Notes under the pieces: generated by a model
The model's database searches: none
Told to the model about the DNA's origin: nothing
The model's input: only the letters and a program-made list of their open reading frames with translations
DNA from: Syntrophaceae bacterium
GTDB taxonomy: Bacteria > Desulfobacterota > Syntrophia > Syntrophales > UBA2185
Reading direction: 5' to 3'
NCBI GenBank assembly: GCA_003153775.1
Contig: PMBI01000055.1
Location: 8,366 to 53,092 of the forward strand
DNA: 44,727 nucleotides
Program-made: the position numbers and the translations under genes
Part shown: piece after piece, positions 2,627-32,003 of the stretch
Position numbering within the stretch: the stretch's first letter is position 1
How the letters are laid out: every line of letters begins with the position of its first letter

Positions 2627-5600
2627 TTACTTGTCGAGTTCCCTTCTTACGGCAATCCCGATTTTCTCCAATAGGTAGGGTTTCTTCACATATGCGCCGG
2701 CCCCGAACTCCTGTGTCCGCGTGACCCGCTCGGTCATCGCAAATCCGCTTACAATGATCGCTTTCTGGTCGTTGCGTACCGCAAGAATCCTGCGGTACGT
2801 CTCCAAACCGTCGATACCCGGATCCATAATCATGTCGAGGATAAGCAGATCAACGGGCTGTTCCTTCACGAATTCTATTGCCTCTTCACCGCTTGCGACG
2901 GAGTCTACCTTGTATCCGAGGCCTTCCAGCATGGCTGACGCGAGGAGACGTTGACCTTCCACGTCATCCACGACCAGAATGTGTTCACCGCGGCCCATGT
3001 ACTCGCTCTGGGGAACGGCCTGTTCAATCTTGGTTAAGGCTTCTCTGGTTACAGGGAAATGGAGGGTAAAGGTGGTCCCTTTTTTCTCTTTGCTCTCCAC
3101 ATCGATGTACCCGTCGTGATCTTTCACTGTGCCCCACACAACCGCCAGTCCGAGACCAGTGCCGCTCCTGCCCATCACCTTCTTCGTATAGAAAGGCTCG
3201 AAGATCCTCCCAATATCCGCGGCCGGAATTCCTGACCCAGTATCCGATACGGTAAGCACGGCATACTCCCCTTCCTGAGTTGTGTCATACCCGTGAATCG
3301 GCTTGTCCACGTAGCGGTTCTCGGTCCTGATCAGCACGTCTCCTGACACGGATATCGCCTCCGCGGCGTTGGAAAGCAGGTTCATCACCGTCTTGCTCAG
3401 ATGTACGGGCGAACCCTTGAGATTCAAAAGCTCTGCATCCAGAGATGTTTCAAATTGGACACCGGGATGATGAGATTTGATTCCCTCGAACTCCGGCGTC
3501 TGCAGGAAATCGGAGATGATCCTGTTGAGGTTTACCGTCTCCGAGACCAGCACGCCTCGCCTGGTAAGCGTGAGCAGGTCCTGGATGATTGCCGCGGCAC
3601 GCTGACCGCCCTTGAATATCTGCATTGCGTGCCTTTGAAAAGGGTTCTCCTGCGGGGCGTTTTGCAGAAGAAGCTCCGAATAGCCGACAAGAACCCCCAG
3701 AACATTGTTGAGGTCATGGGCCACTCCGCCCGCAAGCGTCCCTAATGCCTCCATCTTCTCGGCTCGCTGCAGGCGTTCCTGCAAAATCTTCTGCTTCTGT
3801 GCTTGCTGCTTGTGTTCTGAGATGTCGCGTGCAATCGCCAGAAGGCCCGTTCGCATTCCCTCAGAGTCACGTAAAAAACTATAGTGAATCTCAAACGGTA
3901 TAATGGAACCATCCTTGTGAAATAGTTCAATTTGCATGATAGTCGACTTGGCTGCATCATTTTGACCAGGGCTTTCTATCGCCATCTCTCTCGTTAATTT
4001 CTGGATGGCCATTTCGAAGGATGCGGGAGTAAAGGCTTCCTCCATCGTTCTCGCCATGGCTTCATCTACGGAAAATCCAAGTATACGGGAGACAGAAGGG
4101 CTTATGTATGTCAACCTTGTCGCCATATCTGTAGTTAAGATAATGTCGTTAGCGTTCTCAGCGAGCAGGCGGTATCTCTCTTCACTTTCCTGCAGTTCCT
4201 CCCGCGCGCGCTTGCTGTCTGTGATATCTCGAAACAGCCCCCTGAATCCCGCGGGCCGTCCTTCTGCATCCGTTATAAAAGAGGCGGAGCCCTCTACGGT
4301 TCTCTTGGCGCCATCTTTCGTGATCACGTTCCATTCAAACTGTGCGCGTGCAGTATGTGTTCTGTACACTTCGTTATAAAGTTTGAATATCTTCTCTGAA
4401 TTTTCTTTATCGGTGTATTTTTTGTAGTGCATACCCAATGTCTCTTCCTTACTGTAGCCAAGGAATCGTCGGGCCGCCTCATTGAAGAAGGTGAGCCGTC
4501 CCGTCAGGTCGAGTTCAATATATCCCTCTTCCATATTTTCTATGATGGCGCGGTATTTCTCTTCGCTCTGACGCAAAGCTGCCACGGCCTGCCTTCGTTC
4601 GGTGATGTCCCGGACGATGGCCTGGATCAGGACGTCATCACCGATCTTGATGCTGTTGAGACTGACTTCCGTGTCAAAGGGTGTGCCGTCATACCTTATG
4701 TGCCGCCATTCAAAAAACTGAAGTTCTCCTGACAGCGCGCGCGATATCTTCTCAATGGACTTCTCTCTGGAATCCCTTCCGTCCGGCTGGAAAGGGGGTG
4801 ATAAGGCATAGGGATGATTTCCGATGATCTGATCCATGGTACATCCGAACATTTCCAAGGTGACGGCGTTGCAGTCGATAAACTTATCCCCCTTGAGGAT
4901 GAATATGGCGTCGTTCGCGTAATGGAAGAGCGTCCCGTAACGTTGCTCACCTTCTTTCAGGGCCTCCTCCGCCCGCATGCGGTCGGTGACGTCCTTTGAG
5001 ACTACCGTCACTGCCGTCACTTCGCCGCCGCTTCCCACCACCGGACTGAGTGTCCGGATAAAGAACCTTCCGTCTCTCTCACTCCTATGATCCTGTTGAA
5101 TGGAAGCGCCGGTCTCAAAAACGATCTTCACGCTTTTCGCGAATTCGTGGGAATCTTTCTGGGAATGAAAATCACTGTACGGCCTTCCCACGATCCGGTC
5201 GAGCGGCATACCAAAGCGCTTCTGGTGTCCTTCATTCATAAAAAGGTACCTTTGCTCCGCGTCAATAATGTAGATCGAGTCTACAGTATGTACGAGAGCG
5301 CGATATTTCTCTTCGCTCTGACGCAAGGCTTCCTCGGCCTGCTTACGCTCGGCGATGTCTATGATGGTTCCTCTTATCCCCACGGCTTCATTCTGATGAA
5401 TCTTATTCGAGGCATAGATGAGTCCGATAAACGTGCTGCCGTCTTTCCTGACGAAGGTAAATTCCTGGCCGGGGATTGATGTCTCCTGCATTACCCGCCC
5501 AATACTCTCTCCGACTCTCTGCCATTCCTCGGGTGGAAAAAACTGAAGTGCGTTCATACCCTCTTTGTAATCCTCTTGATTATACCTGAAGACTTCGAGG

Positions 5601-6682
5601 GCAGTGCGATTAAAGGAAATGATGCTGCCCGCGGTATCAACTTCAAAAATTGATATCGGCAGGAAATCTGTCAATTCACGGTACCGCTTCTCACTTTCCC
5701 GAAGCGCCTGCTGGCTCTCCAAGAGTTCAGCATACTTCTGGCGAAGCTCCTCGTCGTAGGCTGACAGTTGTCCATATGCTGCGCTCAGTTCTTCATGCTT
5801 CGCCTTTAAATCTCTTGCTATCTGCCGCTTCTCGGTTACATCCCGGATCGTTCCCCGGTATCCGAACACATTCCCATCAGCATCCTTCCACACAACCGAT
5901 GTAAGAAGGACGTGAATAACAGAACCGTCTTTCCTCCTCATGTCGAAGGGATATTCCTTGACGTATCCTTCCTTGCGCATGTGGGAGATGAACCTGTCTC
6001 TCTGCGTGGGATCAGCATACAAGTTCCGAATCTGCACATTCTTTAATTCCTCTCTGCTCGCATAGCCGAAGAGCTCGACCGCTGCATCATTCAGGTCAAT
6101 CCATTTTCCTTCCACCGAACTGATAAACACGCAGTCCCTCGATGTCTCGAAGAATGCCCTGTATCGCTCTTCGCTGTCGCGCAGGGCTTCTTCCGCATGC
6201 TTCCGCACTGTGATATTGGTCGCGGCCCCCATCATCCGGACCGGGTTTCCCATCCGGTCGCGAAGAATATAGATGCGGTGATTAACATAAACATAGGCCC
6301 CGCCTGCAGTGCGGATCCGGTATTCATTTGAGCCGAATTCCCGGTCGCTCTTCATCAACCTTCCCATACCCAAAACCATCCGGTCACGATCGTCCGGGTG
6401 TATAGCCTGAATCCACCAGTTCCACGGATCATTTATTACTTCGGGGACGCCCAATGCCTTCTGCATCCCCTCATTACACCAGAGTTGATTCTTGGCCACG
6501 TCCCAATCGTGGATGGCATCGTTTGTGGCTATTGACAGCATGGCAAGTCTCTCATCAGACTTCCGCAGCTCTGAAGCCTTCAGTCTGAGCTTATTCCGTG
6601 CTTTTTCGAGCTTCGACACCTTCAGGCGCAAAGAAATCAATCCATCGACAAGCTCCTTCTTGGTCCTGGTATAGTCCTTCAT
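2627..6682 (-). CDS. Cytoplasmic hybrid histidine kinase with seven PAS domains and a C-terminal receiver
   Basis: A 1351-residue protein without membrane segments. Order: N-terminal coiled coil (about 1-42); seven PAS domains at about 44-165, 170-288, 328-447, 455-570, 575-698, 705-824 and 830-955, most introduced by a SEExYR-type linker; a coiled coil at about 289-325 between the second and third; HisKA with the phosphoacceptor His989 (GGVAHDLNN); HATPase with N box, DTGSGIP and GTGLGL motifs at about 1080-1200; and a receiver (about 1228-1348) with phosphoacceptor Asp1283 (LILDM). The GGxAHDxNN H-box puts it in the NtrB-like/HPK4 group common in deltaproteobacteria. The internal receiver has no DNA-binding output, so it may feed a phosphorelay or act as a phosphate sink. 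The signal is cytoplasmic but unknown (PAS can bind haem, flavin or small ligands). AAGGAG precedes the ATG. It is divergent from the TRAP operon, which it might control. Confidence 0.95.
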   Translation of the reverse strand: MKDYTRTKKELVDGLISLRLKVSKLEKARNKLRLKASELRKSDERLAMLSIATNDAIHDWDVAKNQLWCNEGMQKALGVPEVINDPWNWWIQAIHPDDRDRMVLGMGRLMKSDREFGSNEYRIRTAGGAYVYVNHRIYILRDRMGNPVRMMGAATNITVRKHAEEALRDSEERYRAFFETSRDCVFISSVEGKWIDLNDAAVELFGYASREELKNVQIRNLYADPTQRDRFISHMRKEGYVKEYPFDMRRKDGSVIHVLLTSVVWKDADGNVFGYRGTIRDVTEKRQIARDLKAKHEELSAAYGQLSAYDEELRQKYAELLESQQALRESEKRYRELTDFLPISIFEVDTAGSIISFNRTALEVFRYNQEDYKEGMNALQFFPPEEWQRVGESIGRVMQETSIPGQEFTFVRKDGSTFIGLIYASNKIHQNEAVGIRGTIIDIAERKQAEEALRQSEEKYRALVHTVDSIYIIDAEQRYLFMNEGHQKRFGMPLDRIVGRPYSDFHSQKDSHEFAKSVKIVFETGASIQQDHRSERDGRFFIRTLSPVVGSGGEVTAVTVVSKDVTDRMRAEEALKEGEQRYGTLFHYANDAIFILKGDKFIDCNAVTLEMFGCTMDQIIGNHPYALSPPFQPDGRDSREKSIEKISRALSGELQFFEWRHIRYDGTPFDTEVSLNSIKIGDDVLIQAIVRDITERRQAVAALRQSEEKYRAIIENMEEGYIELDLTGRLTFFNEAARRFLGYSKEETLGMHYKKYTDKENSEKIFKLYNEVYRTHTARAQFEWNVITKDGAKRTVEGSASFITDAEGRPAGFRGLFRDITDSKRAREELQESEERYRLLAENANDIILTTDMATRLTYISPSVSRILGFSVDEAMARTMEEAFTPASFEMAIQKLTREMAIESPGQNDAAKSTIMQIELFHKDGSIIPFEIHYSFLRDSEGMRTGLLAIARDISEHKQQAQKQKILQERLQRAEKMEALGTLAGGVAHDLNNVLGVLVGYSELLLQNAPQENPFQRHAMQIFKGGQRAAAIIQDLLTLTRRGVLVSETVNLNRIISDFLQTPEFEGIKSHHPGVQFETSLDAELLNLKGSPVHLSKTVMNLLSNAAEAISVSGDVLIRTENRYVDKPIHGYDTTQEGEYAVLTVSDTGSGIPAADIGRIFEPFYTKKVMGRSGTGLGLAVVWGTVKDHDGYIDVESKEKKGTTFTLHFPVTREALTKIEQAVPQSEYMGRGEHILVVDDVEGQRLLASAMLEGLGYKVDSVASGEEAIEFVKEQPVDLLILDMIMDPGIDGLETYRRILAVRNDQKAIIVSGFAMTERVTRTQEFGAGAYVKKPYLLEKIGIAVRRELDK

Positions 6683-11254: not shown

Positions 11255-12304
11255 TTATTCCATGTATCCTTTTTCAGGCATCAATATGTAGTGCGTCAGA
11301 ATGGCGCTGGTCGCCTCGATGACGTCATGGGGAAGGCGAATCTTTTCGTGAAGCATGGGTCCTTCTGTAGTATTTGCCGAAGGCCCGAACGCGAAAAAAT
11401 GATCGATAGCCTTGTTGGCATTGGTGAAAGGATTGCCGTAAGGCAGTGGTTGCACGAGAGCGAAGACCTCACTGACGATGCTGGTCAACTTCTCTGATAT
11501 CCCCCGTGCTTTTTCCTGATCGTTCTTTTCCAGACTTTCGATGAGAGATGAAAGATCCCGGGAAAAGCAGTTAGCCGTACTTAAAAGAAACCCGTCGTAG
11601 CAGCCGCCCGTGTCTTTGAGCCAATGCGCATAGCCGCCCTCGGCGCCCCTGACGAGATAGCTCCCGCCCTTGTAGACATCGGAAGTGGCAATGCTGTCCT
11701 GACCGCTTGAGTCCTTGAAGAAAACCAGGTTGAAATATTTCTGCACGAGCCTGGCAAAGGTTTCGGGCGCCGCTTCATTTTCCGTCACCTGAGGAAGCTG
11801 ATACAGTGCGACAGGCAGCCCCATATCGAGGACAGCGGAAAGACCCGCTTCAATTTGATGCTGCGTGAGCGACTTCCCCCGGGGTGGGCAGATCGTGAAA
11901 CCGCAAACACGATTTGCTGTCAGGATTTGGCCGGCGTCTTCTTTTCCCGCCGAATATTTTTGAAGCATCCTTATCATGCTTGAGATCGTCCGCTTCATGG
12001 TCTCAACGTCGGCTTTCAGGACACCGAGGAGGAGGCTGATCTCATGCGTCCGGGCCTGCTGTATCGCAAAGTCTGCGACTGCCATTGTTTCATCTTCCGT
12101 CAGTTCCCAGCCGTCACTGGTCGATCCAGGAATGAGAAGTCCCTTGACCCACGGGACTACATGCTTGAAATGGGCACGCATCCGGTCGAAGTCGATTGTG
12201 CCATTGCTCCTGTAGTGTGTGAGGAGAGGGCACCACAACCTGGGGATGCCGGAAGGAAAAAGCTCCTTGATTAACGCCTGGCGCTTCACTGCAATGTCAT
12301 TCAT
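11255..12304 (-). CDS. Dihydrodipicolinate synthase / N-acetylneuraminate lyase family aldolase
   Basis: A 349-residue TIM-barrel class I aldolase of the DapA/NanA family. The Schiff-base lysine is Lys197 (FFKDSSG) and the catalytic tyrosine Tyr168 (ALYQLP); their spacing matches the family. The GSTSDGWELTEDE segment (about 60-72) corresponds to the GTTGE loop of DapA. The protein is about 50 residues longer than DapA, partly through extra sequence near residues 110-145, so it is more likely a paralogue acting on another 2-oxoacid than the lysine-pathway enzyme. The substrate is not readable. The ATG is preceded by AAGGA. It is probably the first gene of the minus-strand group down to 9843 and is divergent from pstS. 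Confidence 0.85.
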   Translation of the reverse strand: MNDIAVKRQALIKELFPSGIPRLWCPLLTHYRSNGTIDFDRMRAHFKHVVPWVKGLLIPGSTSDGWELTEDETMAVADFAIQQARTHEISLLLGVLKADVETMKRTISSMIRMLQKYSAGKEDAGQILTANRVCGFTICPPRGKSLTQHQIEAGLSAVLDMGLPVALYQLPQVTENEAAPETFARLVQKYFNLVFFKDSSGQDSIATSDVYKGGSYLVRGAEGGYAHWLKDTGGCYDGFLLSTANCFSRDLSSLIESLEKNDQEKARGISEKLTSIVSEVFALVQPLPYGNPFTNANKAIDHFFAFGPSANTTEGPMLHEKIRLPHDVIEATSAILTHYILMPEKGYME

Positions 12305-12644
12305 TGAATATCCTTTCAGAGCCTGAATAATTTTGCAGGCATCCGCTGTTTATCACAGTTGTCAGTCGTGAGGCAATAGGCGTTTGGTAACCGCGGGAGC
12401 AGATTCTATTCTTCCCAGGATTAACAAATTCTTCATCCTTCTTTAACAAATCTGCAACATTTGATGTGTATTGATATAATGCATTTGGAAATGAGTCCGT
12501 CTCACAGGATTCCGTAACGGGCTTGACATTATTCACAGTGCTGAAATGCCGATCAGGTTTTTCGGTTCTTGAAAATTGGTAATAAAAGATGTCTTCTATA
12601 AATATTGAAGATAAAGTAAAATTGAATAAATGGAGGTTTTGAAA
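12305..12644. other. Divergent intergenic region carrying the pst control region
   Basis: The 340 bases between the DapA-like gene and pstS hold the tandem Pho-box promoter at 12419-12480, a leader of about 155 bases, and the pstS ribosome binding site. A second TTGACA (12521-12526) has no good -10 behind it. The minus-strand promoter of the DapA-like gene is not clear. Confidence 0.5.
12419..12480 (+). promoter_or_regulatory. Tandem Pho boxes (four 11-bp units) and -10 box of the pst operon
   Basis: Four consecutive 11-base units fill 12419-12462. Units three and four have cores CTTTAAC and CTGCAAC, each followed by an AT-rich tetramer, against the enterobacterial half-site CTGTCAT plus four AT-rich bases. 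TTAACAAAT recurs exactly 22 bases apart (12421 and 12443). A perfect TATAAT at 12475-12480 starts 12 bases after the last unit, and there is no separate -35. This is the known geometry of PhoB-activated promoters, in which phosphorylated PhoB bound to the box replaces the -35 contact. Confidence 0.75.
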
Positions 12645-13496
12645 ATGGTAAGAAAATTACTGGCGGTCTGTTTGATTTGGCTGGCTTTTGGTGCAAATCT
12701 GGCTCTTGCTGCGGAAAGTGTGGTCATCAAGGGATCCACGACGGTTCTGCCTATTGCGCAGGCGGCATTGGAGGTTCACATGAAGGCGCATCCCGGAGTG
12801 AATATATCTCTTTCCGCCGGCGGATCGGGGGACGGGATCAAGGCACTGATCGACAAGTCTACAGACATCGCGAACTCATCAAGGGAAATTAAGGATAAAG
12901 AAATCACCCTTGCCAGAGCTCACGGAGTGGAACCCGTTGCCTACACGGTTGCTATCGACGCTATCGTTCCTATCGTGCATCCGAAGAACAAAGTCAATGG
13001 ATTGACAATTGATCAACTGAGTCAAATCTATCAGGGCAAGATTACGAACTGGAAAGAGGTCGGCGGGGATAACCTCACGATTGTCGTTGTTTCGAGAGAC
13101 AGCAGCTCCGGTACATTTGAGTCCTGGGGGCACCTCGTTTTAAATAATGCCCGCGTAACTCCCAAGGCGCAGTTACAGGCGTCAAGCGGAGCGGTTGTGC
13201 AAACGGTTTCAAAAAACAGATATGCCATCGGTTATATTGGTCTCGGCTACTTGAACACGTCGGTCAAAGGTCTGACCGTCAACGGCATTACGGCCTCGGC
13301 GAAGACCGCGCTTTCCAAAGAATACCCGGTTGCAAGACCTCTCTATATGTATACGAACCGGCAACCTGCGGGTGAAACCGCAAATTTCATCAAATTTGTA
13401 CTGAGCCCTGCCGGACAGAAACTTGTTGCGAAAGAGGGGTTCGTTCCTTTGATTGCGGAAGAAATAAGGAAGCCGGCTCAGAAGGGTAAGAAATAA
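12645..13496 (+). CDS. pstS: Phosphate ABC transporter substrate-binding protein PstS
   Basis: Periplasmic phosphate-binding protein, about 283 residues. After a signal peptide (cleavage near ALA-AES), the mature protein opens with VIKGSTTVLPI. It carries the phosphate-contacting blocks SAGGSGDGI, IANSSREI and SRDSSSGTF seen in the PstS family. A downstream Ile-Tyr-Gln-Gly-Lys-Ile-Thr-Asn-Trp segment is a further hallmark. The chosen start at 12645 has GGAGG eight bases upstream; the in-frame ATG at 12630 would put this site inside the gene. First gene of pstSCAB-phoU-phoR, behind a Pho-box promoter, so expression should rise on phosphate starvation. Confidence 0.95.
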   Translation: MVRKLLAVCLIWLAFGANLALAAESVVIKGSTTVLPIAQAALEVHMKAHPGVNISLSAGGSGDGIKALIDKSTDIANSSREIKDKEITLARAHGVEPVAYTVAIDAIVPIVHPKNKVNGLTIDQLSQIYQGKITNWKEVGGDNLTIVVVSRDSSSGTFESWGHLVLNNARVTPKAQLQASSGAVVQTVSKNRYAIGYIGLGYLNTSVKGLTVNGITASAKTALSKEYPVARPLYMYTNRQPAGETANFIKFVLSPAGQKLVAKEGFVPLIAEEIRKPAQKGKK

Positions 13497-13505
13497 AAAT
13501 AAAAC

Positions 13506-14393
13506 ATGAACAGGCATCAGAAAGAAATTTTCATCAGAGGTATCTTTGCTTTTTTCGCCTTTGCATCCGTGCTTATTCTGGCGCTGATTGTCATGTTCCT
13601 GTTCCGTGAAGGATTACCCATATTCAAAGAGGTTTCCGTCGCAGATTTCCTATTCGGACAGGAATGGTATCCCACGTATGACCCTCCCGCTTACGGGATA
13701 TGGCCCTTGATTTTCGGTTCTGTGATCGTCACTGTATTCTCCTGTCTTATTGCCGTTCCGTTGGGGGTCCTTTCCGCTGTGTACATTTCTGAAATAGCGC
13801 CAGCTTCCATCAAGGATATTACGAAGTCGATAATAGAGCTCCTGGCAGGTATTCCCTCCGTAGTCCTCGGTTTCTTCGGCATGGTCGTTGTAGCCCCCTT
13901 TCTCCAGGACACTTTTGATCTCCCGACGGGTCTTAACATCGTGAATGCTTCCGTCATTCTCGCGATCATGGCGATACCTACGATTTCGAGCATCTCAGAG
14001 GATGCCCTTTATGCCGTACCTAGTGAGTTCAAGGAAGCGTCGTACGCCCTGGGTGCAACGAAATACGAAACTATAACCAAGGTCATCATGCCGGCCGCCC
14101 TGTCGGGGATTTCCACGGCCGTAATTCTGGGCATGGCAAGGGCTATAGGCGAAACCATGGTGGTGCTCATGGTTGCGGGCGGTGCGGCGGCCGTGCCGGA
14201 GAGCATCTTTGATTCTGTCAGGCCTATGCCCGCCTCCATTGCCGCGGAGATGGGCGAAGCGCCCTTCGGGAGCGGCCACTACCATGCCCTCTTTGCCATA
14301 GGCATGGTGTTGTTTTTCCTGACGCTCTTCTTTAATCTCATTGCCGATTATATCTCACAGAAATTCAAGGAAGTGGGATCAGCGACACTATAA
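13506..14393 (+). CDS. pstC: Phosphate ABC transporter permease PstC
   Basis: A 295-residue inner-membrane permease with about six helices. The PstC pattern is visible: an N-terminal helix followed by a periplasmic loop containing FGQEWYPTYDPP, then GIPSVVLGFFG, and the cytoplasmic EAA-like loop EASYALGATKYETI with the following glycine, which docks the PstB ATPase. With PstA it makes the phosphate channel. The start lies 9 bases after pstS; the ribosome binding site is weak, so translation may depend on coupling to pstS. Confidence 0.94.
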   Translation: MNRHQKEIFIRGIFAFFAFASVLILALIVMFLFREGLPIFKEVSVADFLFGQEWYPTYDPPAYGIWPLIFGSVIVTVFSCLIAVPLGVLSAVYISEIAPASIKDITKSIIELLAGIPSVVLGFFGMVVVAPFLQDTFDLPTGLNIVNASVILAIMAIPTISSISEDALYAVPSEFKEASYALGATKYETITKVIMPAALSGISTAVILGMARAIGETMVVLMVAGGAAAVPESIFDSVRPMPASIAAEMGEAPFGSGHYHALFAIGMVLFFLTLFFNLIADYISQKFKEVGSATL

Positions 14394-14414
14394 AGGGGAA
14401 CAGGAGTTTACATT

Positions 14415-15293
14415 ATGCAGGCTGCGCTCACGACATCCATGACATTTCGATATTTCAAACAGCAGGTATTTTTTACCGTCGTGCGATTGTCGGCGCTCTT
14501 GATTGCTTTAGCCTTGGGCGGTCTCATTGCTTACATCGTGGCAAATGGAATATCAGCAATTAGTTGGGATTTTCTCACCCTTCCGCCGACGGATTCCATG
14601 ACGAAGGGCGGGATCATGCCCGCCATTTTAGGTACCCTTTATCTGACAATCGGCGCAATAGCTGTTGCACTTCCTCTCGGTGTAGTCTCGGCAATCTATC
14701 TTACCGAATATGCAAAACAGGGAAGATTTGTCAGACTTGTCCGCATTGGTATAAATTGTTTGGCGGGGGTTCCATCGGTGGTCTTTGGATTGTTCGGACT
14801 CGGGTTCTTTGTTGTTTTTCTGCATTTCGGATCATGCATTCTTTCCGGAGCCTTGACCCTTGGCATACTTGTCCTGCCGACGATTATCGGGGCGTCGGAA
14901 GAAGCCTTGAAAGCGGTTCCACAGACATTCCGCGAGGCTTCACTGGCCCTGGGTGTATCTAAGTGGGAGACCATTTATAAGATCGTCTTGCCGAATGCTT
15001 TACCCGGAATACTGACAGGGTCGATCCTGGGCATCGGCAGGGCGGCCGGCGAAACAGCGCCGATTATGTTTACTGCAGCGGCATTCTTTACAGCGAAGCT
15101 TCCCAGCTCCGTCTTCGATGAAGTCATGGCTCTTCCGTACCACGTATATGTTCTTGCTACGGCGGGCACCCATATAGACCAGACGAGATCGATTCAATAT
15201 GGGACGGTGCTCGTTCTTGTCGGACTTGTGCTTGGCGTTGATCTTATCGCCATTGTCATCAGGAGTTATGTAAGGAAGAAAAAAAGGTGGTAA
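14415..15293 (+). CDS. pstA: Phosphate ABC transporter permease PstA
   Basis: A 292-residue permease partner of PstC with six predicted helices. Family features are [14 protein letters not shown] near the start of the core, [16 protein letters not shown], and the EAA-type loop [15 protein letters not shown] that contacts PstB. The ATG is preceded by CAGGAG at good spacing, 21 bases after pstC. Its stop overlaps or nearly touches the start of pstB. Confidence 0.94.
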
Positions 15294-15295
15294 TT

Positions 15296-16057
15296 GTGGA
15301 AGGCAACAGTATAATCGAATTGAAGAATGTAAATTTTTTCTATGGAAAGACCAGGGCACTGACCGATATCACCATGGATTTTAGCAAGAACCGGGTTACC
15401 GCCCTGATAGGACCATCCGGCTGCGGCAAGTCCACGTTGTTGAGAGTGCTCAATCGCATGAATGATCTCATCGATGGAACCAAGGTCGAGGGAGAAATCA
15501 TTTTTGAAGGCATAAATATTTATAAGCCTGATGTAGATCCCGTCGACATTCGGAGAAAGATCGGCATGGTTTTTCAAAAGCCCAACCCGTTTCCTAAGTC
15601 GATATTCAGCAATATAGCCTATGCCCCGAGACTTGCGGGGATCACTAAAAGGAGTGATCTGGAATTTCTTGTCGAAGAAAGCCTGAAACAGGCGGTGTTG
15701 TGGGATGAGGTAAGGGATATCCTGGGAAAATCGGCGATGACCCTCTCCGGTGGGCAGCAGCAGCGTCTCTGTATTGCCAGAGCGCTTGCCATGAAACCGG
15801 ATGTCATACTCATGGATGAGCCGACGTCGGCGCTCGATCCTATATCAACGGCGAAAATCGAAGAGCTGATCGATGAGTTGAGAAGGAATTATACCATCAT
15901 CATTGTTACTCATAACATGCAGCAGGCAGCCCGTGTTTCATCTAAGACCGGTTTTTTCTATTTAGGGAAGCTCATTGAATATAACGCCACGGAAAAAATA
16001 TTCACCAATCCGGATGTGAAACAGACGGAAGACTATATTACCGGGAGATTCGGCTGA
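15296..16057 (+). CDS. pstB: Phosphate ABC transporter ATP-binding protein PstB
   Basis: A cytoplasmic ATPase of about 253 residues that drives phosphate import. Walker A is GPSGCGKST, the ABC signature LSGGQQQR, Walker B VILMDEP, and the H-loop lies in IVTHNMQQA. The RVLNRMNDL segment after Walker A and the C-terminal [15 protein letters not shown] are typical of PstB. I prefer the GTG at 15296, with AAGG spaced properly in front; a GTG at 15287 overlapping the end of pstA is the alternative and would add three residues. Confidence 0.95.
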
Positions 16058-16172
16058 TCAAGGGATGGCAGGATTTCTCCCCGTCTGCGCAGGGACAGAG
16101 ATCGAAATGAGAAAGCGGAAATTGTTAGAACGATAAATCGCCGAGGATGATCTAAAGGCATGGAGATGACAA

Positions 16173-16856
16173 ATGGCTGAAAAAAAGCACACAAGCACCC
16201 ACTATGAAAAAGAACTTCGGGACATCAAGGAATGTCTTATATATTTAGGCGCCCTCGTAGAAAAGGCAATAGAATTTGCAACAGAAGCCCTTGTCGACAG
16301 GAATACGGAACTGGCCCACAAGGTAATCTGCGATGACAATACGATCGATCAGCTTGATGTGGAAATCGAGGAAAAGTGTATCCGTATACTGGCCTTGAGG
16401 CAGCCGACGGCGAGGGACCTGAGATACATCACAACGGCCATTAAAATCAATGGACATCTGGAGAGGATCGGCGACATGGCGGCTAATATTGCTGAAAAAG
16501 CTATTCTCTTAAGTGAGGAACCGCCGATGAAGCCCTATATAGATATTCCCCGGATGGCGGAAATTGCCCGGCGAATGATAAAGGAAAGCCTCGATGCCCT
16601 GGTTAATGAAGATACTGATCTGGCGCGTAAAGTACGGATGGAGGATGAAACCATCGATAACCTCAACGAACAGGTTTTCCGGGAACTCCTCACCTTCATG
16701 TTGGAAGATCCCAAAAAGATCCATAGAGCTCTCATAATTATGCAGATCTCCAAGAGCCTCGAGAGGATTTCCGATCATGCCGTGGGTATTGCAGACATGG
16801 TCATGTATATGGTGACGGGAAAGATTGTCAGGCACGAACCATCCTGCAAGGTTTAG
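16173..16856 (+). CDS. phoU: Phosphate signalling protein PhoU
   Basis: A 227-residue, all-helical cytoplasmic protein made of two PhoU repeats. Each carries the metal-binding type motif: LERIGDMAANIAE in the first (about 95-107) and LERISDHAVGIAD in the second. PhoU links the Pst transporter to the PhoR kinase and damps the Pho response when phosphate is plentiful. The ATG has GGAG eight bases upstream. A gap of about 115 bases separates it from pstB; no terminator or promoter stands out there. Confidence 0.95.
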   Translation: MAEKKHTSTHYEKELRDIKECLIYLGALVEKAIEFATEALVDRNTELAHKVICDDNTIDQLDVEIEEKCIRILALRQPTARDLRYITTAIKINGHLERIGDMAANIAEKAILLSEEPPMKPYIDIPRMAEIARRMIKESLDALVNEDTDLARKVRMEDETIDNLNEQVFRELLTFMLEDPKKIHRALIIMQISKSLERISDHAVGIADMVMYMVTGKIVRHEPSCKV

Positions 16857-16866
16857 GAGCGACTGA

Positions 16867-18630
16867 TTGAAGAATCATCTATTATACAGGATTCTTGCCT
16901 GCTATGTCGCGCTGATACTTTTCACCGCAATAGCCATGGGATTGATGTATGCCCGGCAGATCAAGACTGAATTGATAGACGGGATCAAAAATGACCTGAT
17001 TGCTCAAGCACGAATCTCTGCATTATTGGGGACAGGCGATATTGAAAGGAAGCTGTCAAATCTGGCTGATATATCCCGCTCCCGTGTTACCCTTATTGAT
17101 GCTTCGGGCCGCGTCAAGGCGGATTCAGAGAAAGACTTGGCGGAGATGGAGAGTCACCTCAACCGCTCGGAAATTCAGGAAGCGAGGATCAAGGGACAGG
17201 GGGAAGCCATTCGTTACAGCCGCACCCTCGGTGTAGACATGCTCTACATTGCCTTTCCGGTTACAGAAGGCTCTGAAGTTAAAGGCTACATACGATTTGC
17301 CCGTCCGCTTTTCGAGGTGAGAAAATCCATCGATCAACAGTACACTTATATATATAAGTGTCTCCTGATCGCCATCATTCCTTCGCTCGTCATTGCATTT
17401 CTTCTGGCCAGAAAATTTATATCGCCAATCGAGAAAGTAATTTCATATACGCACAAGGTTTCCGGCGGCGAGTCATTAGGAACACTTCTGGTAGAGGCAA
17501 ATGACGACGTTGGACAATTGGAAAAAGACATCAATCGTATGGTTGTTGAACATCGGGAAAGGGTGAGGGTTGCGGATCAGGATAGGGCGCAACTTGAAGC
17601 GGCCTTTGCCAGCATGACAGAGGGCGTGCTTGTAATCAACAATCAGGACCGCATCGAGTTTCTCAATAGAAGCCTGAAACACGTCCTCGGAAATGAAGGC
17701 ATCGCTGACATTTTGGATAAGACGCCGCTTGAGGCGTTCAGGAATGTTCAGTTACAGGATGCCCTCGATCTGTTCAGAGATTCCGGAGCACCCGTGTTGC
17801 GGGAGATCAGCCTCGGGCAGGAAGCGCCGATTATTCTGGATGTCACTATATCAGCCGTTCAAGGACTACCCGAAGGGAAACAAAAGACGATGATGGTATT
17901 TCACGACGTCACGCGTCTCAAGAAACTAGAAAAGATACGTGAGGACTTCGTGGCTAATGTTACCCACGAGATTAAGACACCACTTACGGCCATCATAGGA
18001 TTTATTGAGACCCTTGAGGATGGCGCCATCAATGAAGAAGCGACGGCGAAAAGATTTCTTCACATAATTTCCGAGAATGCTCATCGTCTTGGAAGGCTGG
18101 TGGACGACCTGCTGGTTCTTTCGAGCATTGAGCTGGGAGAAATGAAATTGCGGATCGAAAATGTCTCCATAGCCGATGCAATTGATAACGTGTTGCCTAT
18201 GTTCGAGACGAAAGCGGCGGATAAATCCCTTGCTATTGATAAAAAAATTTCTGATAAACTCCCGTTTATTGGGGCTGACAGGGATAAATTGGCGCAGATT
18301 CTTGTGAACATTCTCGATAATGCCATCAAATTTACGCCAAGCGGCGGAAAGATTTCTATTGCTGCGTTCCAAGATGAAAAAGGTTATGTGGTCGTCAGAG
18401 TGATGGACACGGGCATAGGTATACCGAAAATGGAAATTCTCAGGCTTGGAGAACGGTTCTACCGGGTGGATAAGACACGCTCGAGGGAGTTGGGGGGCAC
18501 CGGTCTCGGATTGTCAATAGTAAAACATCTCATGAGAGCACATAACGGAAGCATTGATATCGAAAGTCAGGTGGGAAAAGGTACTACGGTTTCTCTCAGT
18601 TTTCCCCAAAATAGGGCGCCGATAACATAA
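16867..18630 (+). CDS. phoR: PhoR-type phosphate sensor histidine kinase
   Basis: A 587-residue membrane kinase. Helix one lies at about 7-29, an extracytoplasmic domain at about 30-162, helix two at about 164-183, HAMP at about 184-235, PAS at about 240-345, HisKA with phosphoacceptor His367 (NVTHEIKTPLTA), and HATPase with the N box, DTGIGIP and GTGLGLSIV motifs. The H-box sequence and its place after phoU support PhoR. The large extracytoplasmic domain resembles the PhoR of Gram-positive bacteria more than that of E. coli. Translation starts at TTG with AGGAG seven bases before it, 10 bases after phoU. No PhoB response regulator gene follows; a terminator comes next. Confidence 0.9.
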   Translation: MKNHLLYRILACYVALILFTAIAMGLMYARQIKTELIDGIKNDLIAQARISALLGTGDIERKLSNLADISRSRVTLIDASGRVKADSEKDLAEMESHLNRSEIQEARIKGQGEAIRYSRTLGVDMLYIAFPVTEGSEVKGYIRFARPLFEVRKSIDQQYTYIYKCLLIAIIPSLVIAFLLARKFISPIEKVISYTHKVSGGESLGTLLVEANDDVGQLEKDINRMVVEHRERVRVADQDRAQLEAAFASMTEGVLVINNQDRIEFLNRSLKHVLGNEGIADILDKTPLEAFRNVQLQDALDLFRDSGAPVLREISLGQEAPIILDVTISAVQGLPEGKQKTMMVFHDVTRLKKLEKIREDFVANVTHEIKTPLTAIIGFIETLEDGAINEEATAKRFLHIISENAHRLGRLVDDLLVLSSIELGEMKLRIENVSIADAIDNVLPMFETKAADKSLAIDKKISDKLPFIGADRDKLAQILVNILDNAIKFTPSGGKISIAAFQDEKGYVVVRVMDTGIGIPKMEILRLGERFYRVDKTRSRELGGTGLGLSIVKHLMRAHNGSIDIESQVGKGTTVSLSFPQNRAPIT

Positions 18631-26696: not shown

Positions 26697-28532
26697 TTAA
26701 CTGACAATTAATGCTTCCTCTGGGCAAGTCATTACCGTGTCGTCCTCATTTCTAATCACCTCTGCAGCAAGGAAAGCGTTGGGCAATATATTGTTGACGT
26801 AATACCTGGCGCACGCGATCTTCCCTTTATAGAATTGTGTATTGACTGCATCGGCGGGTATGTCATCGAGCTTACTCTTTGCAATCAGTGCTTGCTCAAG
26901 CAGACACTCGGCAACCTGGACCTGGGAGCAGACGAACAGCGCTTTTAGCGCATGCAGAGGTATGAGTGACCTTTTTTCACCCATATTGTCATACCAGGAA
27001 TCATAAGTAGTTTTTACCAGCTCTATGCATCGGTAGCCCCTGGCCAAGTTACTCATCTCTTTCTTTAAACCGGGGGCATTACGGTTGGCTTCGATGAAGT
27101 CCTTTATAGCTGCCATCCAGTTTGCAAAAGAAGAGCCTTCCTTCATCCGCATCTTGCGTCCCACGAGGTCGTTTGCCTGAATGAAAGAGGTTCCCTCCCA
27201 GATGGTGAGGATTTTGGAATCCCTCAGGTACTGCTCCACCGGGTATTCCTGGGTGTAGCCGACGCCGCCAAGGACTTGAATCGCCTGTGTGATCGTGCCG
27301 ACACTCGCCTCCGCGCCATAACATTTTATTAACGGAGTGAGAACGTCAACAAGTTCGCCGCATCTTCTTGCCGTCTCTCTGTTGCCGGAATTATTCTGGA
27401 TGTCGAGGTAATAGCATGCCTTGAATACCATCGCCCTGATACCTTCCACATGCGCCTTCATGTCAAGGAGCATCCTCCTGACATCTTCGTGCTTTGAGAT
27501 CGGGACGCGCTCGGCGTTCTTCATGCCGAAGGGCCTTCCCTGAATGCGCTCTGTCGCGAACTGGGATGCGAAATAGTATGCTGCGGCCGCCTGTGTGTTG
27601 GCATTGTGCCCGGTGGCGATCCGGGACTCATTCATCATGTGAAACATCATTGCCAGGCCGTGGGAATGGCCTTTTTCGTCAGGAGGCGGGCCGAGGCGGA
27701 TTCCATAACATTCGTCGTCATCGCCGAAATTGAGGAGCGCCGTAGCCTGGGCATGGAGCCCCATCTTGTGCTCCAGGCGCGCTGTCTTGACATCATTGGG
27801 CTTGCCCAGAGTTCCGTCCTCGTTCACCCATATCTTGGGAACGATGAAGAGCCCGATACCCGTGGAGCCCTGGGCGCCTACTTCAGGGCGGGCGAGCACC
27901 ATGTGTATTGTGTTTTCACAGTGGCCGCCGTCCCCTCCGGTGATGAACATCTTGGTACCTTTGATCTTGTATATCCGCGCGTCGTCGGTTGGATAGGCTC
28001 TCGAAGCAATGTCACCCACATCCGATCCGAAGTTGGGTTCCGTAAGACACATGGTTCCCTGCCACTCGCCACCCAGCATCTTCTGCAGAAACATGGCCCG
28101 GTCTCTTTCTGTGCCGAAGCGCAGAATCAGATTGGCTGCACCGCTCGTAAGCTTGATGTATGATGTCAAAGCTGGGCATGCGGCCTGGTTGATCTCAGAG
28201 ACGGCCTTGTAAAGAATGAGAGGCATGCCGGTTTCAATCTTTATGCATTCGCTGCTTGATCCCCACCCGTTCTGCTGAAGAAAGCGATACGCCTCCCGGA
28301 AGCCCGGCGTAGGCGTCACCACACCGTTCTCCAGTTTTGCTCCTGTCTTATCTCCGACGGCGTTTATGGGATTAACGATCTCCCGCGCGACCTTGTAAAC
28401 TTCCTTCAAAACAATGTCGATATCATCAATGCCGAAATTTTCCTTAAACCGGTCGCATGCGAAAACCTCCTCAGACGGCAGCCACTCCTTCAGGATGAAT
28501 ATTAAATCTCTCAAATCGTACTTGAATTCCAT
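26697..28532 (-). CDS. Large acyl-CoA dehydrogenase (about 600 residues, DmdC/FadE5-like)
   Basis: A 611-residue FAD enzyme of the acyl-CoA dehydrogenase superfamily that introduces the alpha-beta double bond into an acyl-CoA. The N-terminal extension, the MCLTEPNFGSDVG flavin/substrate loop (about 162-174) and the KGTKMFITGGDGGH segment belong to the long subfamily that includes DmdC (methylmercaptopropionyl-CoA dehydrogenase) and FadE5. The C-terminal IWEGTS carries the probable catalytic glutamate. After the core there is an extra helical C-terminal domain (about 460-611), usual for this subfamily. The acyl chain cannot be read. AGGAG precedes the ATG. Last gene of the five-gene beta-oxidation operon. 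Confidence 0.93.
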   Translation of the reverse strand: MEFKYDLRDLIFILKEWLPSEEVFACDRFKENFGIDDIDIVLKEVYKVAREIVNPINAVGDKTGAKLENGVVTPTPGFREAYRFLQQNGWGSSSECIKIETGMPLILYKAVSEINQAACPALTSYIKLTSGAANLILRFGTERDRAMFLQKMLGGEWQGTMCLTEPNFGSDVGDIASRAYPTDDARIYKIKGTKMFITGGDGGHCENTIHMVLARPEVGAQGSTGIGLFIVPKIWVNEDGTLGKPNDVKTARLEHKMGLHAQATALLNFGDDDECYGIRLGPPPDEKGHSHGLAMMFHMMNESRIATGHNANTQAAAAYYFASQFATERIQGRPFGMKNAERVPISKHEDVRRMLLDMKAHVEGIRAMVFKACYYLDIQNNSGNRETARRCGELVDVLTPLIKCYGAEASVGTITQAIQVLGGVGYTQEYPVEQYLRDSKILTIWEGTSFIQANDLVGRKMRMKEGSSFANWMAAIKDFIEANRNAPGLKKEMSNLARGYRCIELVKTTYDSWYDNMGEKRSLIPLHALKALFVCSQVQVAECLLEQALIAKSKLDDIPADAVNTQFYKGKIACARYYVNNILPNAFLAAEVIRNEDDTVMTCPEEALIVS

Positions 28533-28570
28533 TTCTTGCCTCTCCTGTCCGGCCCTATTTATCCTGCGCC

Positions 28571-29728
28571 CTACACCCTATTCGGGGCATAGCCTAGAGC
28601 CGCGTTGGCCACGATCATGGTGTGCATATTAGAAGTACCCTCGAGCGTCTCAAATTGTTTTGAATCCCGCAGGAAGCGTCCGCAGGGATATTCTTCGGAG
28701 TAGCCGTAGGAGCCGTGAAGCTTCATACATTCATTGGCCGCATGGACGACGATCTTTGCCCCGTAGAGCTTGGACATCGAGGTCTCCATCACGTTCGGAA
28801 GGTTCCTGTCTTTCAGCCATGCAGCCTTGTAAACCAGAGCGGCCAGCGATTCATGCTCCATCTTCATTTCCGCAATCTGCTGCTGGATCAATTGGTATCT
28901 GCCAATCTGTTTTCCGAACTGCGTTCTTTCATTTGCATATTTAATGGATTGCTCCAGGATGGCGCCGGAAAGGCCCAAGGCGCCGGCAGAACAGCCCAGG
29001 CGGGTTGCGTTCAATTGTGCCATGCATATCTGGAATCCCTTGTTCATCTTTCCGAGAACAACCTCCTTGGGAACCTTGACATCCTCAAAGGCGATTTCCG
29101 CCGTATCGGAAGCCCACAATCCCACCTTGTCGTGTAGCTTCCGGCGGGTGATGCCCGGCAGGCTGTAATCCATTATCAGGCAGGTGATCCCCTTCGCCCC
29201 GGCATCCTTGTCCGTCTTCACATAAAGGAGGCCATGATTGCAGATGGTTCCATTGGTTATGAACATCTTGGTGCCGTTTAAGAGAAAATAATCTCCTTTA
29301 TCCTGCGCGCGGCAGCGCATGGCGGCAACGTCAGAGCCGATATCGGGCTCTGTCATGGCGAAGCTTCCGATGAATTCTCCACTGACAAACCTGGGTATGT
29401 AATAGTCCTTCTGCGCTTGCGCGCCGAATTTTTGAATTGTCAATGCCGGGCCCCAGCACTGCATGTTAAAGGCCATCCGCCAGGAGGTATGGACCTTTGC
29501 GACCTGCTCAATTACCAGGCTCCCCTCGAGAAATCCCATGCCGTTGCCGCCGTATTTCTCGTCGATACAGAAACCAAAGAAACCCAGTGCCGCCATCTTT
29601 TCGAATATCTCCCTGCGCCAGTGCTGGTTCTTTTCATCTTCATCTACATATGGCTTGATTTCATTCTCGGCGAAATTCTTTGCCATATCCTGAATCATTT
29701 GCTGCTCTTGCGTTTGTGCAAAATCCAT
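28571..29728 (-). CDS. Acyl-CoA dehydrogenase (short, about 385 residues)
   Basis: A 385-residue FAD-dependent acyl-CoA dehydrogenase of the usual short length. Present are the AMTEPDIGSDVAAM loop (about 125-138), LNGTKMFITNG, the RTQFGKQIGRYQ helix and the C-terminal TLEGTSNMHTM with the catalytic-base glutamate. Butyryl-, glutaryl- and related dehydrogenases share these features; I cannot assign the chain length. The electrons would leave through an electron-transfer flavoprotein, whose genes are not in the window. AAGGAG precedes the ATG. The large dehydrogenase starts 38 bases later. Confidence 0.95.
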   Translation of the reverse strand: MDFAQTQEQQMIQDMAKNFAENEIKPYVDEDEKNQHWRREIFEKMAALGFFGFCIDEKYGGNGMGFLEGSLVIEQVAKVHTSWRMAFNMQCWGPALTIQKFGAQAQKDYYIPRFVSGEFIGSFAMTEPDIGSDVAAMRCRAQDKGDYFLLNGTKMFITNGTICNHGLLYVKTDKDAGAKGITCLIMDYSLPGITRRKLHDKVGLWASDTAEIAFEDVKVPKEVVLGKMNKGFQICMAQLNATRLGCSAGALGLSGAILEQSIKYANERTQFGKQIGRYQLIQQQIAEMKMEHESLAALVYKAAWLKDRNLPNVMETSMSKLYGAKIVVHAANECMKLHGSYGYSEEYPCGRFLRDSKQFETLEGTSNMHTMIVANAALGYAPNRV

Positions 29729-29746
29729 CTTGTTCTCCTTGCCGAT

Positions 29747-31015
29747 TTATGATTTTCTCTCTACGACTATGCAGATTCCCTGCCCGCCGCCGCCGCAGAT
29801 GGTCTCGAACCCGTAACGGGCATTGCGTCTTTTCATTTCATGGAGGAGCGTTGTCAGTCTCATCATGCCCGTTGCGCCTACCGGATGGCCAAGGGAAATG
29901 CCCGATCCATTCACATTCACCTTCTCTTCCATATCTTTGTCACTGAGCCCGCACAGCCTTGCATCTGCCAAGGCCTGGACTGCAAAGGCCTCCTGCACCT
30001 CTATGAGATCTATCTGATCGATCTTCAAACCGGTCTTACTGAGAGCCTTGGAGACTGCGACAGGCACTGCTGGATACGTCAATGTTGGATCCGTGGCGGC
30101 AATAGCACACGAACGAAAATATGCCATCGGTTTGATACCGAGTTCTGTTGCTCTTCTTTCAGATGCGAGGACAACGACAGAGGCACCGTCATTCTCCGAA
30201 GAGGAATTACCGGCAGTACACACCCCGTCCGGATAAACGGGCCGGAGCCCGGCAAGCTTTTCCATGGTCGTTTCGCGGCGCGGTCCCTCATCTGTATGGA
30301 AAAATATGACGTCCCCGCTTTTCCCTTTTCCAACGGGAACGTCAACTATCTCATCCTCGAATTTCCCGGCATCCCATGCAGCAATAGCTTTCTTGTGGCT
30401 GTGATATGCCCATCTGTCCGCCTCTTCACGGGTTATATTTTCCCTCTTGGCCGCCGTCTCCGCCCAGGACATCATAGAGCTCAGTTCTCCGTAACGGTGG
30501 ACGGGTTGAGACATCACCCTCCCGCGCTGAATCCTGTCGTAGAGCGGAATGCCCCACATCGCAAGGGCGCCGTGGCCCTTGGGCATGAAACCATACTTGT
30601 CATGGTTCTTACCGCCGAGACCCCATTTAATATCACCCGGTATATAGAGTTCCGCCTGGCTCATGCTGTCCATACCGCCGGCGACGATAATTTCTGCATT
30701 TCCCGTTTGGATCTGTAAAGAGCCGTAAAAGATTGATTCCAGCCCTGAGCAGCAGCGACGGTCCAGCACAACGCCAGGCACAGTATCCGGCCAGCCCGCA
30801 TCAAGAACAGCCATGCGGGCACCGTTGGCGCATTCCCCGTTCTGGTAGGATGTGCCTATGATGACGTCATCGACCGCAGCAGCTTCGATGCCGGCCCTCC
30901 TCACAGCCTCATTCAAAACGAGGCTGCCGAGCCGGTAGACCGGAATGCCTTTCATCGCCCCGCCATAGGCGCCTATCGGCGTGCGGACACAACTCAGAAT
31001 GACCACATTTTCCAT
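29747..31015 (-). CDS. Thiolase (acetyl-CoA acyltransferase)
   Basis: A 422-residue thiolase that cleaves 3-ketoacyl-CoA with CoA in the degradative direction. The nucleophilic cysteine is Cys88 (in RCCSGLES); the standard CGSG has its first Gly replaced by Cys89 here. The C-terminal LGHPVGATG supplies the histidine and ICGGGGQG the second active cysteine. The length is slightly above the typical 390-400 because of extra sequence around residues 120-160. GAGG precedes the ATG. It lies between the hydroxyacyl-CoA dehydrogenase and the short acyl-CoA dehydrogenase. Confidence 0.95.
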   Translation of the reverse strand: MENVVILSCVRTPIGAYGGAMKGIPVYRLGSLVLNEAVRRAGIEAAAVDDVIIGTSYQNGECANGARMAVLDAGWPDTVPGVVLDRRCCSGLESIFYGSLQIQTGNAEIIVAGGMDSMSQAELYIPGDIKWGLGGKNHDKYGFMPKGHGALAMWGIPLYDRIQRGRVMSQPVHRYGELSSMMSWAETAAKRENITREEADRWAYHSHKKAIAAWDAGKFEDEIVDVPVGKGKSGDVIFFHTDEGPRRETTMEKLAGLRPVYPDGVCTAGNSSSENDGASVVVLASERRATELGIKPMAYFRSCAIAATDPTLTYPAVPVAVSKALSKTGLKIDQIDLIEVQEAFAVQALADARLCGLSDKDMEEKVNVNGSGISLGHPVGATGMMRLTTLLHEMKRRNARYGFETICGGGGQGICIVVERKS

Positions 31016-31052
31016 TTTTCATTACCTCGTGTAATTCTTCCTGAAAATCTGA

Positions 31053-31940
31053 CTAGAAGTTAAGGTCCGTCCGCGGCTTCTTCTCGCCGGACGTGTAGTC
31101 GTACCAGCCCTTCCCGGTCTTGCGCCCCAGGTCGCCGGAAGCCACCATTTTCTTCAGAATCAGAGAGGGTGCCCATTTCGGGTCCTTAAAGTTTTCCCAC
31201 AGGGTTTCCGCCACGGCCAGGCCGATCTCAAGACCGACAAAATCACCCAGTTCGAAAGGACCCATGGGATGGTTAAGGCCGAACTTCAGGGCCTTGTCGA
31301 TGTCTTCGATGGTTGCGACACCCTCCGCCAGGCATCTGTAAACCTCATTGCGAAGTGCCGCGTTGACCCGGTTGACGAGAAAACCGGGGCCGTCTTTTAC
31401 ATAAACCGGGATCTTGCCAAACTTTTCCGCCAATTCTTTGATTGTCACGGCGGTTTCTTCCGAAGTCTTCAAACCCCTGATGACCTCAACGAGCTTCATG
31501 ACCGGAACGGGGCTGAAGAAATGCATGCCGGCAAACCTCTCCGGCCGCTTGGTAGCGGCGGCCAGTTCCGTGATAGGAATAGAGGAAGTGTTGCTTGCAA
31601 ATATGACCTCTCGCGGGCAGAGTTCGTCCAGTTTCCTGAAGAGCTCCGTCTTGGCCTGCTTATTTTCGAATATGACTTCGATTACCACGTCGCAGTCTTT
31701 AGCGAGAGCGAGATCAAGAGTCGGGGTAATCCTGTCGAAAGTAGCCTTGACGTCTTCTTCGCTGAGCTTCCCTTTGGCAACACCGTTCTTAAGGTTTTTC
31801 TCGATAGTCGCCATGCCCTTTTGAACCAGTTCATCCTTTATATCCTGCATTACCACCGTAAAGCCAGCAGCAGCCGCAACCTGTGCAATCCCTGAGCCCA
31901 TGAAACCTGATCCTGCAACCATAATCTTTTTTATCTTCAT
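31053..31940 (-). CDS. 3-hydroxyacyl-CoA (3-hydroxybutyryl-CoA) dehydrogenase
   Basis: An NAD-dependent dehydrogenase of about 295 residues that oxidises 3-hydroxyacyl-CoA. The Rossmann motif GSGFMGSG lies at about 9-16; the catalytic histidine is in MHFFSPVP and its partner glutamate in the FENKQAKTELF region; NHPMGPFEL opens the C-terminal helical domain. The size matches the monofunctional 3-hydroxybutyryl-CoA dehydrogenase (Hbd) type, without a fused hydratase. I start at 31940, which has GAGGGG upstream and begins directly with the Rossmann strand; the longer frame to 31997 adds 19 unconserved residues. Confidence 0.95.
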   Translation of the reverse strand: MKIKKIMVAGSGFMGSGIAQVAAAAGFTVVMQDIKDELVQKGMATIEKNLKNGVAKGKLSEEDVKATFDRITPTLDLALAKDCDVVIEVIFENKQAKTELFRKLDELCPREVIFASNTSSIPITELAAATKRPERFAGMHFFSPVPVMKLVEVIRGLKTSEETAVTIKELAEKFGKIPVYVKDGPGFLVNRVNAALRNEVYRCLAEGVATIEDIDKALKFGLNHPMGPFELGDFVGLEIGLAVAETLWENFKDPKWAPSLILKKMVASGDLGRKTGKGWYDYTSGEKKPRTDLNF

Positions 31941-32003
31941 TTTTCCCCTCTGTTTCCGGCATTGTAAAGAACGAAAAGATGTTCTGATAAACCGCAACCA
32001 TCT

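Follow-up and report, generated by a model that had tools for sequence, protein, structure and literature searches.

A four-unit Pho-box array and two candidate -10 hexamers upstream of the pst operon in an uncultured Syntrophales bacterium

Introduction

What kind of control element precedes the pst genes of an uncultured Syntrophales bacterium, and from which of two adjacent -10 hexamers would phosphate-controlled transcription start? The DNA analyzed here (the window, 44.7 kb in full) corresponds to C24:8366-53092 of a 98-contig, 3.13-Mb assembly. Since the closest named relatives are Syntrophaceae-labelled assemblies, with a PstS 93% identical to that of fen_1164, the organism is placed with the Syntrophales. 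A search of the literature by title and abstract, in which Yuan et al. 2006 (twelve proteobacteria) was not covered, returned no description of a Pho box in this order.

The operon in question spans 12630-18630, with all six genes on the + strand:

12630..13496, + strand: pstS (TIGR02136, 274.9 bits, cut-off 206.6)
13506..14393, + strand: pstC (TIGR02138, 309.9 bits, cut-off 196.45)
14415..15293, + strand: pstA (TIGR00974, 289.9 bits, cut-off 193.45)
15287..16057, + strand: pstB (TIGR00972, 399.2 bits, cut-off 343.2)
16173..16856, + strand: phoU (TIGR02135, 211.1 bits, cut-off 130.25)
16867..18630, + strand: PhoR/PnpS-like sensor histidine kinase (PnpS, 380.5 bits, cut-off 400; PhoR, 299 bits, cut-off 334.2)

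The gene order pstSCAB-phoU-phoR given in a first-pass annotation of this DNA is retained, the last name being reduced to PhoR/PnpS-like. PnpS and PhoR are among the best matches of the kinase, both under their curated cut-offs, and its domains are HisKA and HATPase_c, with sCache_like and PAS_8 barely over their cut-offs; the name is a putative one, chosen from the best match and the operon position only. The corresponding operon of E. coli is pstSCAB-phoU, from which the present one differs in that the kinase gene lies inside the operon and phoB elsewhere. Farther away in the window, a gene at 2627-6682 (- strand) encodes a hybrid histidine kinase of 1351 residues that combines several PAS domains with a receiver domain, and acyl-CoA dehydrogenase, thiolase, AMP-binding, and CoA-ligase-like genes follow one another at 26697-36030 (- strand), a run that would fit a degrader of fatty or aromatic acids.

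Computational Details

The genome set consisted of 60 genomes, 46 of them with a PstS match, from which 30 loci were taken. Two loci (L018 and L020) were dropped, their upstream region being absent or too short, which left 28. The window is one of these, as is G001, its closest relative. Input to the motif search was the stretch of 260 bases preceding pstS (207 in a single locus). Expectation-maximisation for a 22-base motif was run on 26 loci, with the window and G001 left out and two other genomes of the window's genus kept in the training set of the resulting 22-column matrix. A larger collection of 80 named loci was used for the spacing analysis: 5 were skipped (without upstream sequence), and the 75 that were scanned comprised 18 repeats of the training set and 57 new loci, of which 52 scored at least 17, a limit set by us. 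The second model, R2, was built on 76 promoters with the window's whole genus excluded and three family genomes kept. Model R1, trained with the window included and not independent, was superseded by R2.

Results and Discussion

Architecture of the Array

The region in front of pstS contains the following elements:

12419..12429, + strand: Pho unit 1 (distal), GATTAACAAAT, read directly; weakly conserved in the 76 relatives, with an invariant T at the fourth base
12430..12440, + strand: Pho unit 2, TCTTCATCCTT; order consensus TYTTCATCAnn
12441..12451, + strand: Pho unit 3, CTTTAACAAAT, a family variant; order consensus CTGTCATCAAA
12452..12462, + strand: Pho unit 4 (promoter-proximal), CTGCAACATTT; order consensus CTGTAACAWTT
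12463..12474, + strand: stretch GATGTGTATTGA between unit 4 and TATAAT, read directly
12463..12468, + strand: six-base spacer GATGTG between unit 4 and the canonical -10
12469..12474, + strand: degenerate hexamer TATTGA at the canonical -10 place; the same-genus genomes G002 and G003 carry TATTAT there
12475..12480, + strand: TATAAT with a TG one base upstream (TGATATAAT), six bases beyond the canonical place and shared with G001
12481..12629, + strand: predicted untranslated leader of about 149 nt, the transcript start itself being predicted

The four consecutive 11-base units at 12419-12462, as already described in the first-pass annotation, are read directly from the sequence and hold the two top sites of the matrix in the window. 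The exact 22-base recurrence that had been pointed out is likewise present: TTAACAAAT occurs at 12421 and again at 12443. No other 9-mer of the window recurs exactly at this distance, words with only one or two kinds of letter being disregarded, and of 2000 dinucleotide shuffles made from the 325-nt intergenic region, 2 contain such a recurrence. The cores CTTTAAC and CTGCAAC are found in the last two units, as stated there. A Pho box is defined, in the excerpt of PMC4415409, as 11-base direct repeats composed of a CTGTCAT-like core plus four bases, and the window contains at least two direct 11-base repeats of this E. coli type.

The expectation-maximisation converged on CTGTCATCAAACTGTAACAATT with a score of 455, the best of 60 starts, whereas five base-shuffled sets, run from 12 starts apiece, scored 91-106. 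Scanned along the full window, both strands included, the matrix has its best site at 12430 (units 2-3, 19.6 bits), followed by 12441 (units 3-4, 18.1 bits), and the next site has 8.1 bits. The value of 19.6 was reached by 1 of 2000 dinucleotide shuffles of the intergenic region on either strand. The best register being units 2-3, and not 3-4, was counted against the main explanation discussed below. Model R2 finds the array with 32.3 bits (E 2.2e-7), its positions 3-53 being aligned to 12421-12471. No Rfam family was matched within the window at gathering thresholds. A consensus promoter scan of 12300-12660 gave nothing at the array, which has no -35, and one match at 12304-12331, which is not above shuffles (mean 1.4).

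The consensus columns of the Syntrophales (76 promoters, genus excluded) consist of a weak unit 1, the consensuses of units 2-4 listed above, six bases, and TATATT. The promoter-proximal pair is strong and the distal pair weaker. The fourth base is T in 76 (unit 1), 76 (unit 2), and 74 (unit 3) of the 76 promoters. The window shares with these promoters the four-unit layout and the AACA core of unit 4. In its unit 3 (CTTTAAC), AAC takes the place of the CAT of the order. The AAC core is present in 7 of the 8 family genomes with a readable promoter, G007 being the exception, and TTAAC in 6 of the 8; among the remaining 73 promoters of the R2 set, which are outside the known family, L028 alone has it. 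The AAC core is a family-level variant of the known box. The earlier proposal of a lineage-specific motif is not supported by the motif of the order, which is close to the E. coli Pho box; what is particular to the window is the AAC core. On these sequence features, the array is assigned as a Pho-box array of four units before a pst operon, of a kind common across the order.

Known boxes compare as follows. The E. coli pstS promoter also has four 11-base units on the coding strand, followed by a -10, before pstS (units assigned by eye), so that the number of units is the same. Its own elements are CTGTCATAAAA, CTGTCATATTC, CTTACATATAA, and CTGTCACCTGT, six bases, and TATTTT, whereas the window has units of TTAACA/TTCATC type, TATTGA at six bases, and TATAAT at twelve. 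For Desulfovibrio vulgaris, the excerpt of PMC3333781 gives the box of PhoB (DVU1083) as (c/t)GT(n)AC repeats 4 bases apart before pst genes, described as 6-bp repeats with a 4-bp spacer, and binding of this PhoB to the box was shown by gel shift according to the excerpt of PMC6456213. As far as these excerpts describe that box, the window differs in its four units and in the third base, which is T instead of G in units 1, 2, and 3. Units 1 and 3 of the window hold TTAACA, 22 bases apart. The PhoP box of Bacillus subtilis is built of TTAACA-type repeats; this likeness is only a resemblance, the regulator of the window being apparently PhoB-like.

Position of the -10 Element

The first-pass annotation considered TATAAT, which is indeed present at 12475-12480, twelve bases past the array, to be the -10 of the Pho promoter and the geometry to match that of enterobacterial PhoB promoters. 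Neither assignment agrees with the comparison. In E. coli the -10 starts six bases past the last unit, with TATAGT in phoA, TATTTT in pstS, and CATAAT in phoB (by eye; for phoB, CTGTCATAAAT was our choice of last unit). The relatives also place it six bases on, where the window has TATTGA: TA is found there in 26 of 26 and the final T in 23 of 26, although these units were anchored by eye, which can favour regular spacing. At every other offset from 0 to 21 in the same 26 relatives, the mean -10 score is negative.

Anchoring by the matrix only agrees with the by-eye anchoring on the six-base spacing. In the 52 further loci at a score of at least 17, TA is located six bases past the array in 50 and TAnnnT in 41, as compared to 4 and 0, respectively, at twelve bases. 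Of the five loci under 17, four (L068, L072, L087, and L124) again show TA at the six-base position, and L074 is without usable upstream sequence; the low-scoring loci included, the count is 54/57, with L055 (CATATT) and L111 (AATATT) as exceptions. For the pooled Syntrophales promoters it is 74/76. The last unit of the window was anchored at unit 4, despite the preference of the matrix for units 2-3, since in G002-G004 a TATTAT follows this unit at six bases and the R2 alignment agrees.

Compared with the other Syntrophales, the window and G001 are distinguished by a -10 that is either degenerate or displaced. TATTGA has a score of -1.33, which is level with the weakest of the 76 relatives (TAAGAG, -1.32) and not clearly below all of them; hexamers of such weakness, for example TAAGAG and TAAGAA, occur at the canonical place in a few relatives. 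TATAAT lies six bases, or about half a helical turn, from the canonical place, and at twelve bases from the array it falls outside the register of all four units. This placement is common, among the promoters read, to the window and G001 only. The hexamer occurs anywhere in 335 of 2000 shuffles and is thus not rare, and TGnTATAAT occurs in 24 of 2000. The alignments of the window to G002 and G004 open a gap at the -10 region, and G003 lacks the same gap. Judged from G002 and G004, the shift may go back to an insertion of six bases, but G003 gives no such indication.

Between the window and G001, 153 of the 155 bases at 12475-12629 are the same, and array and leader together are identical at 207 of 211 bases, as compared to 122 of 139 four-fold sites of pstS (Fisher p 1e-4), although a local or recent exchange of DNA could equally give such a tight match. 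G001 has, beside the orthologous locus, a second pstS locus (L052 / L138, G001:C243) with a canonical box of 46.7 bits, which may be either a true second copy or assembly contamination.

Regulator and Other Pho Targets

The best PhoB match of the genome is encoded on contig C6 (TIGR02154, 281.1 bits, full length) and is under the curated cut-off of 296.2; TIGR02154 is the best of 98 families for this protein, and on this match the genome is considered to contain a PhoB-type regulator. Its DNA-reading stretch, TVDVHISRLR, is one residue apart from the TVDVHIRRLR of E. coli. The 36 stretches read in relatives, with some loci from the same genome, are RAVDVHIRRLR (20), RTVDVHISRLR (7), RTVDVHIRRLR (7), and RTVDVHIKRLR (2). 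The C6 phoB follows a ComM-like gene (by eye), and no kinase gene was seen in the 1.5 kb after it, as far as read by eye. The search of the whole genome with R2 gave no site before it.

R2 finds sites at E <= 0.001 in 45 of the 60 genomes, the present one included, and none at this threshold in the other 15. In the whole genome under study (E <= 10) it finds two sites only, that of the window and C85:92378-92429 (- strand; L131 8379-8430, G000; 35.0 bits, E 3.3e-8). The first-pass annotation had named the absence of similar boxes before other phosphate genes as a ground for refutation; such a box is present, although it is the only further one. An exact-pattern search of the genome with up to 3 mismatches found the window alone, the 21-base word being too strict. 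Two weak R1 matches are absent from the R2 list and were dropped, one in C12 (E 0.36) and one in C65 (G000:C65:43674-43703, L133 3675-3704; 13.7 bits, E 0.17). A substrate-binding-protein-like ORF precedes the C65 site, and an ORF of 489 residues follows it at 254 bases (names by eye).

The C85 box lies 72 bases before a porin-like ORF of 467 residues, whose likeness to an outer-membrane porin is weak (NF033939, 67.8 bits, cut-off 250) and which matched no Pfam family. On the other side, at 356 bases, is a divergent 5'-nucleotidase-like ORF of 578 residues, with Metallophos and 5_nucleotid_C over cut-off (part scanned) and UshA at 225.7 bits (cut-off 600). The same arrangement with the box is found in G001, G002, and G004, and all four boxes have TA six bases past the last unit (by eye).

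In relatives, 20 stretches picked from R2 sites away from PstS matches hold 23 sites. An assignable gene follows 14 of these, namely, the porin/5'-nucleotidase pair (3), pstC (4), a PhnD-ending gene (1), a PHO4 phosphate transporter (1), DUF47 (PhoU_div; 1), a PstS-like binding protein (1), PF01451 (2), and a porin-like ORF (1), and the other 9 have no assignable gene or an unrelated one, with L171 counted without a family search and L170b showing no ORF. The motif therefore appears to track phosphorus genes mostly, not always. The two PF01451 sites (low-molecular-weight phosphatase / ArsC type) belong to family members, L169 1312-2050 (G005:C95) and L170 1930-2501 (G006:C446), and hint at a Pho-controlled handling of arsenate. 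The PhnD-ending gene, at L182 (G050:C26:90948-90999), is a 613-residue ORF whose C-terminal half scores as PhnD (321.7 bits, cut-off 261.1); it may be a phosphonate target, and its odd N-terminal extension possibly reflects a wrong start.

Proposed Mechanism and Alternatives

The feature is very probably an ordinary PhoB-type phosphate-starvation promoter, in which the four units drive pstSCAB-phoU and the kinase gene. By analogy with known PhoB systems, scarcity of phosphate would lead to the phosphorylation of a PhoB-type response regulator, two dimers of which would then occupy the four units at 12419-12462 in a head-to-tail arrangement. The bound regulator would recruit RNA polymerase in place of a -35 element, with a transcript start somewhat more likely than not near 12481 from TATTGA (12469-12474), and would in this way, again as in known PhoB systems, activate the pstSCAB-phoU genes together with that of the kinase. 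The kinase gene is part of the operon and phoB lies elsewhere without a detected box, so that positive feedback would act by way of the kinase and the transporter, not of phoB. Against this reading stand the weakness of TATTGA, the scores of PhoB and the kinase under their curated cut-offs, the 15 genomes in which R2 has no site at E <= 0.001, and the 9 of 23 inspected sites with no assignable phosphate gene.

A functionless, A+T-rich chance repeat deserves practically no credence: the intergenic region does have 63% A+T, but the expectation-maximisation motif, the matrix ranks, the six-base spacing, the R2 sites, and the conservation across the order are all against it. It is also highly improbable that the array is bound by another OmpR-family regulator instead of PhoB. 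In its favour, the PhoB model has 11 matches at E <= 1e-20, most of them over the receiver part only, and the second best, a protein on C95, is full length (146.8 bits). Against it, the motif is Pho-box-like in both sequence and spacing and stands before pst across the order. In addition, of the 71 named loci whose upstream sequence reaches 1000 nt or more, 25 have the end of phoB within less than 450 nt of pstS.

A closer alternative concerns the hexamer and not the regulator. The ancestor shared with G001 may have undergone a change of about six bases that broke TATTAT and created the extended -10 TGATATAAT half a helical turn away, in which case the usual contact with PhoB would be lost and the operon would have basal, phosphate-independent transcription, or PhoB would act differently. 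The TATTAT of G002 and G003, the weakness of TATTGA, the low frequency of TGnTATAAT in shuffles, and the gap toward G002 and G004 (not the same in G003) speak for such a move. We nevertheless consider it unlikely: the array and leader kept relative to G001 suggest that the box is still used, unless DNA was recently exchanged, the other Pho promoter of the genome (C85) retains the six bases, and TAAGAG and TAAGAA are equally weak at the canonical place elsewhere. Somewhat less likely still is the use of both hexamers, with a PhoB-dependent start at about 12481 at low phosphate and a PhoB-independent start from the extended -10 at about 12487 at high phosphate; both are present and both are kept in G001, but overlapping starts of this kind are indistinguishable from sequence. 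The excerpt of PMC10294691 states that structural models support strict requirements on the spacing between pho box and core promoter. We lean, with some reservation, toward the canonical -10 at 12469-12474 as the origin of the phosphate-controlled start, because the array and leader are more tightly kept between the window and G001 than the four-fold sites of pstS; TATAAT would then be accidental or an additional -10.

Conclusions

The present analysis gives the Pho switch of uncultured Syntrophales a comparative basis, by providing its motif, its spacing, and a second, porin-like/5'-nucleotidase target, and R2 is a model able to find Pho promoters in genomes of this order. The feature is otherwise ordinary, the displaced TATAAT amounting to a minor experiment of nature on the strict spacing that has been proposed between PhoB and the core promoter. 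If the -10 has in fact moved in this sublineage, the locus would be a natural test of whether activation by PhoB tolerates a rotated promoter or the operon has become partly independent of phosphate.
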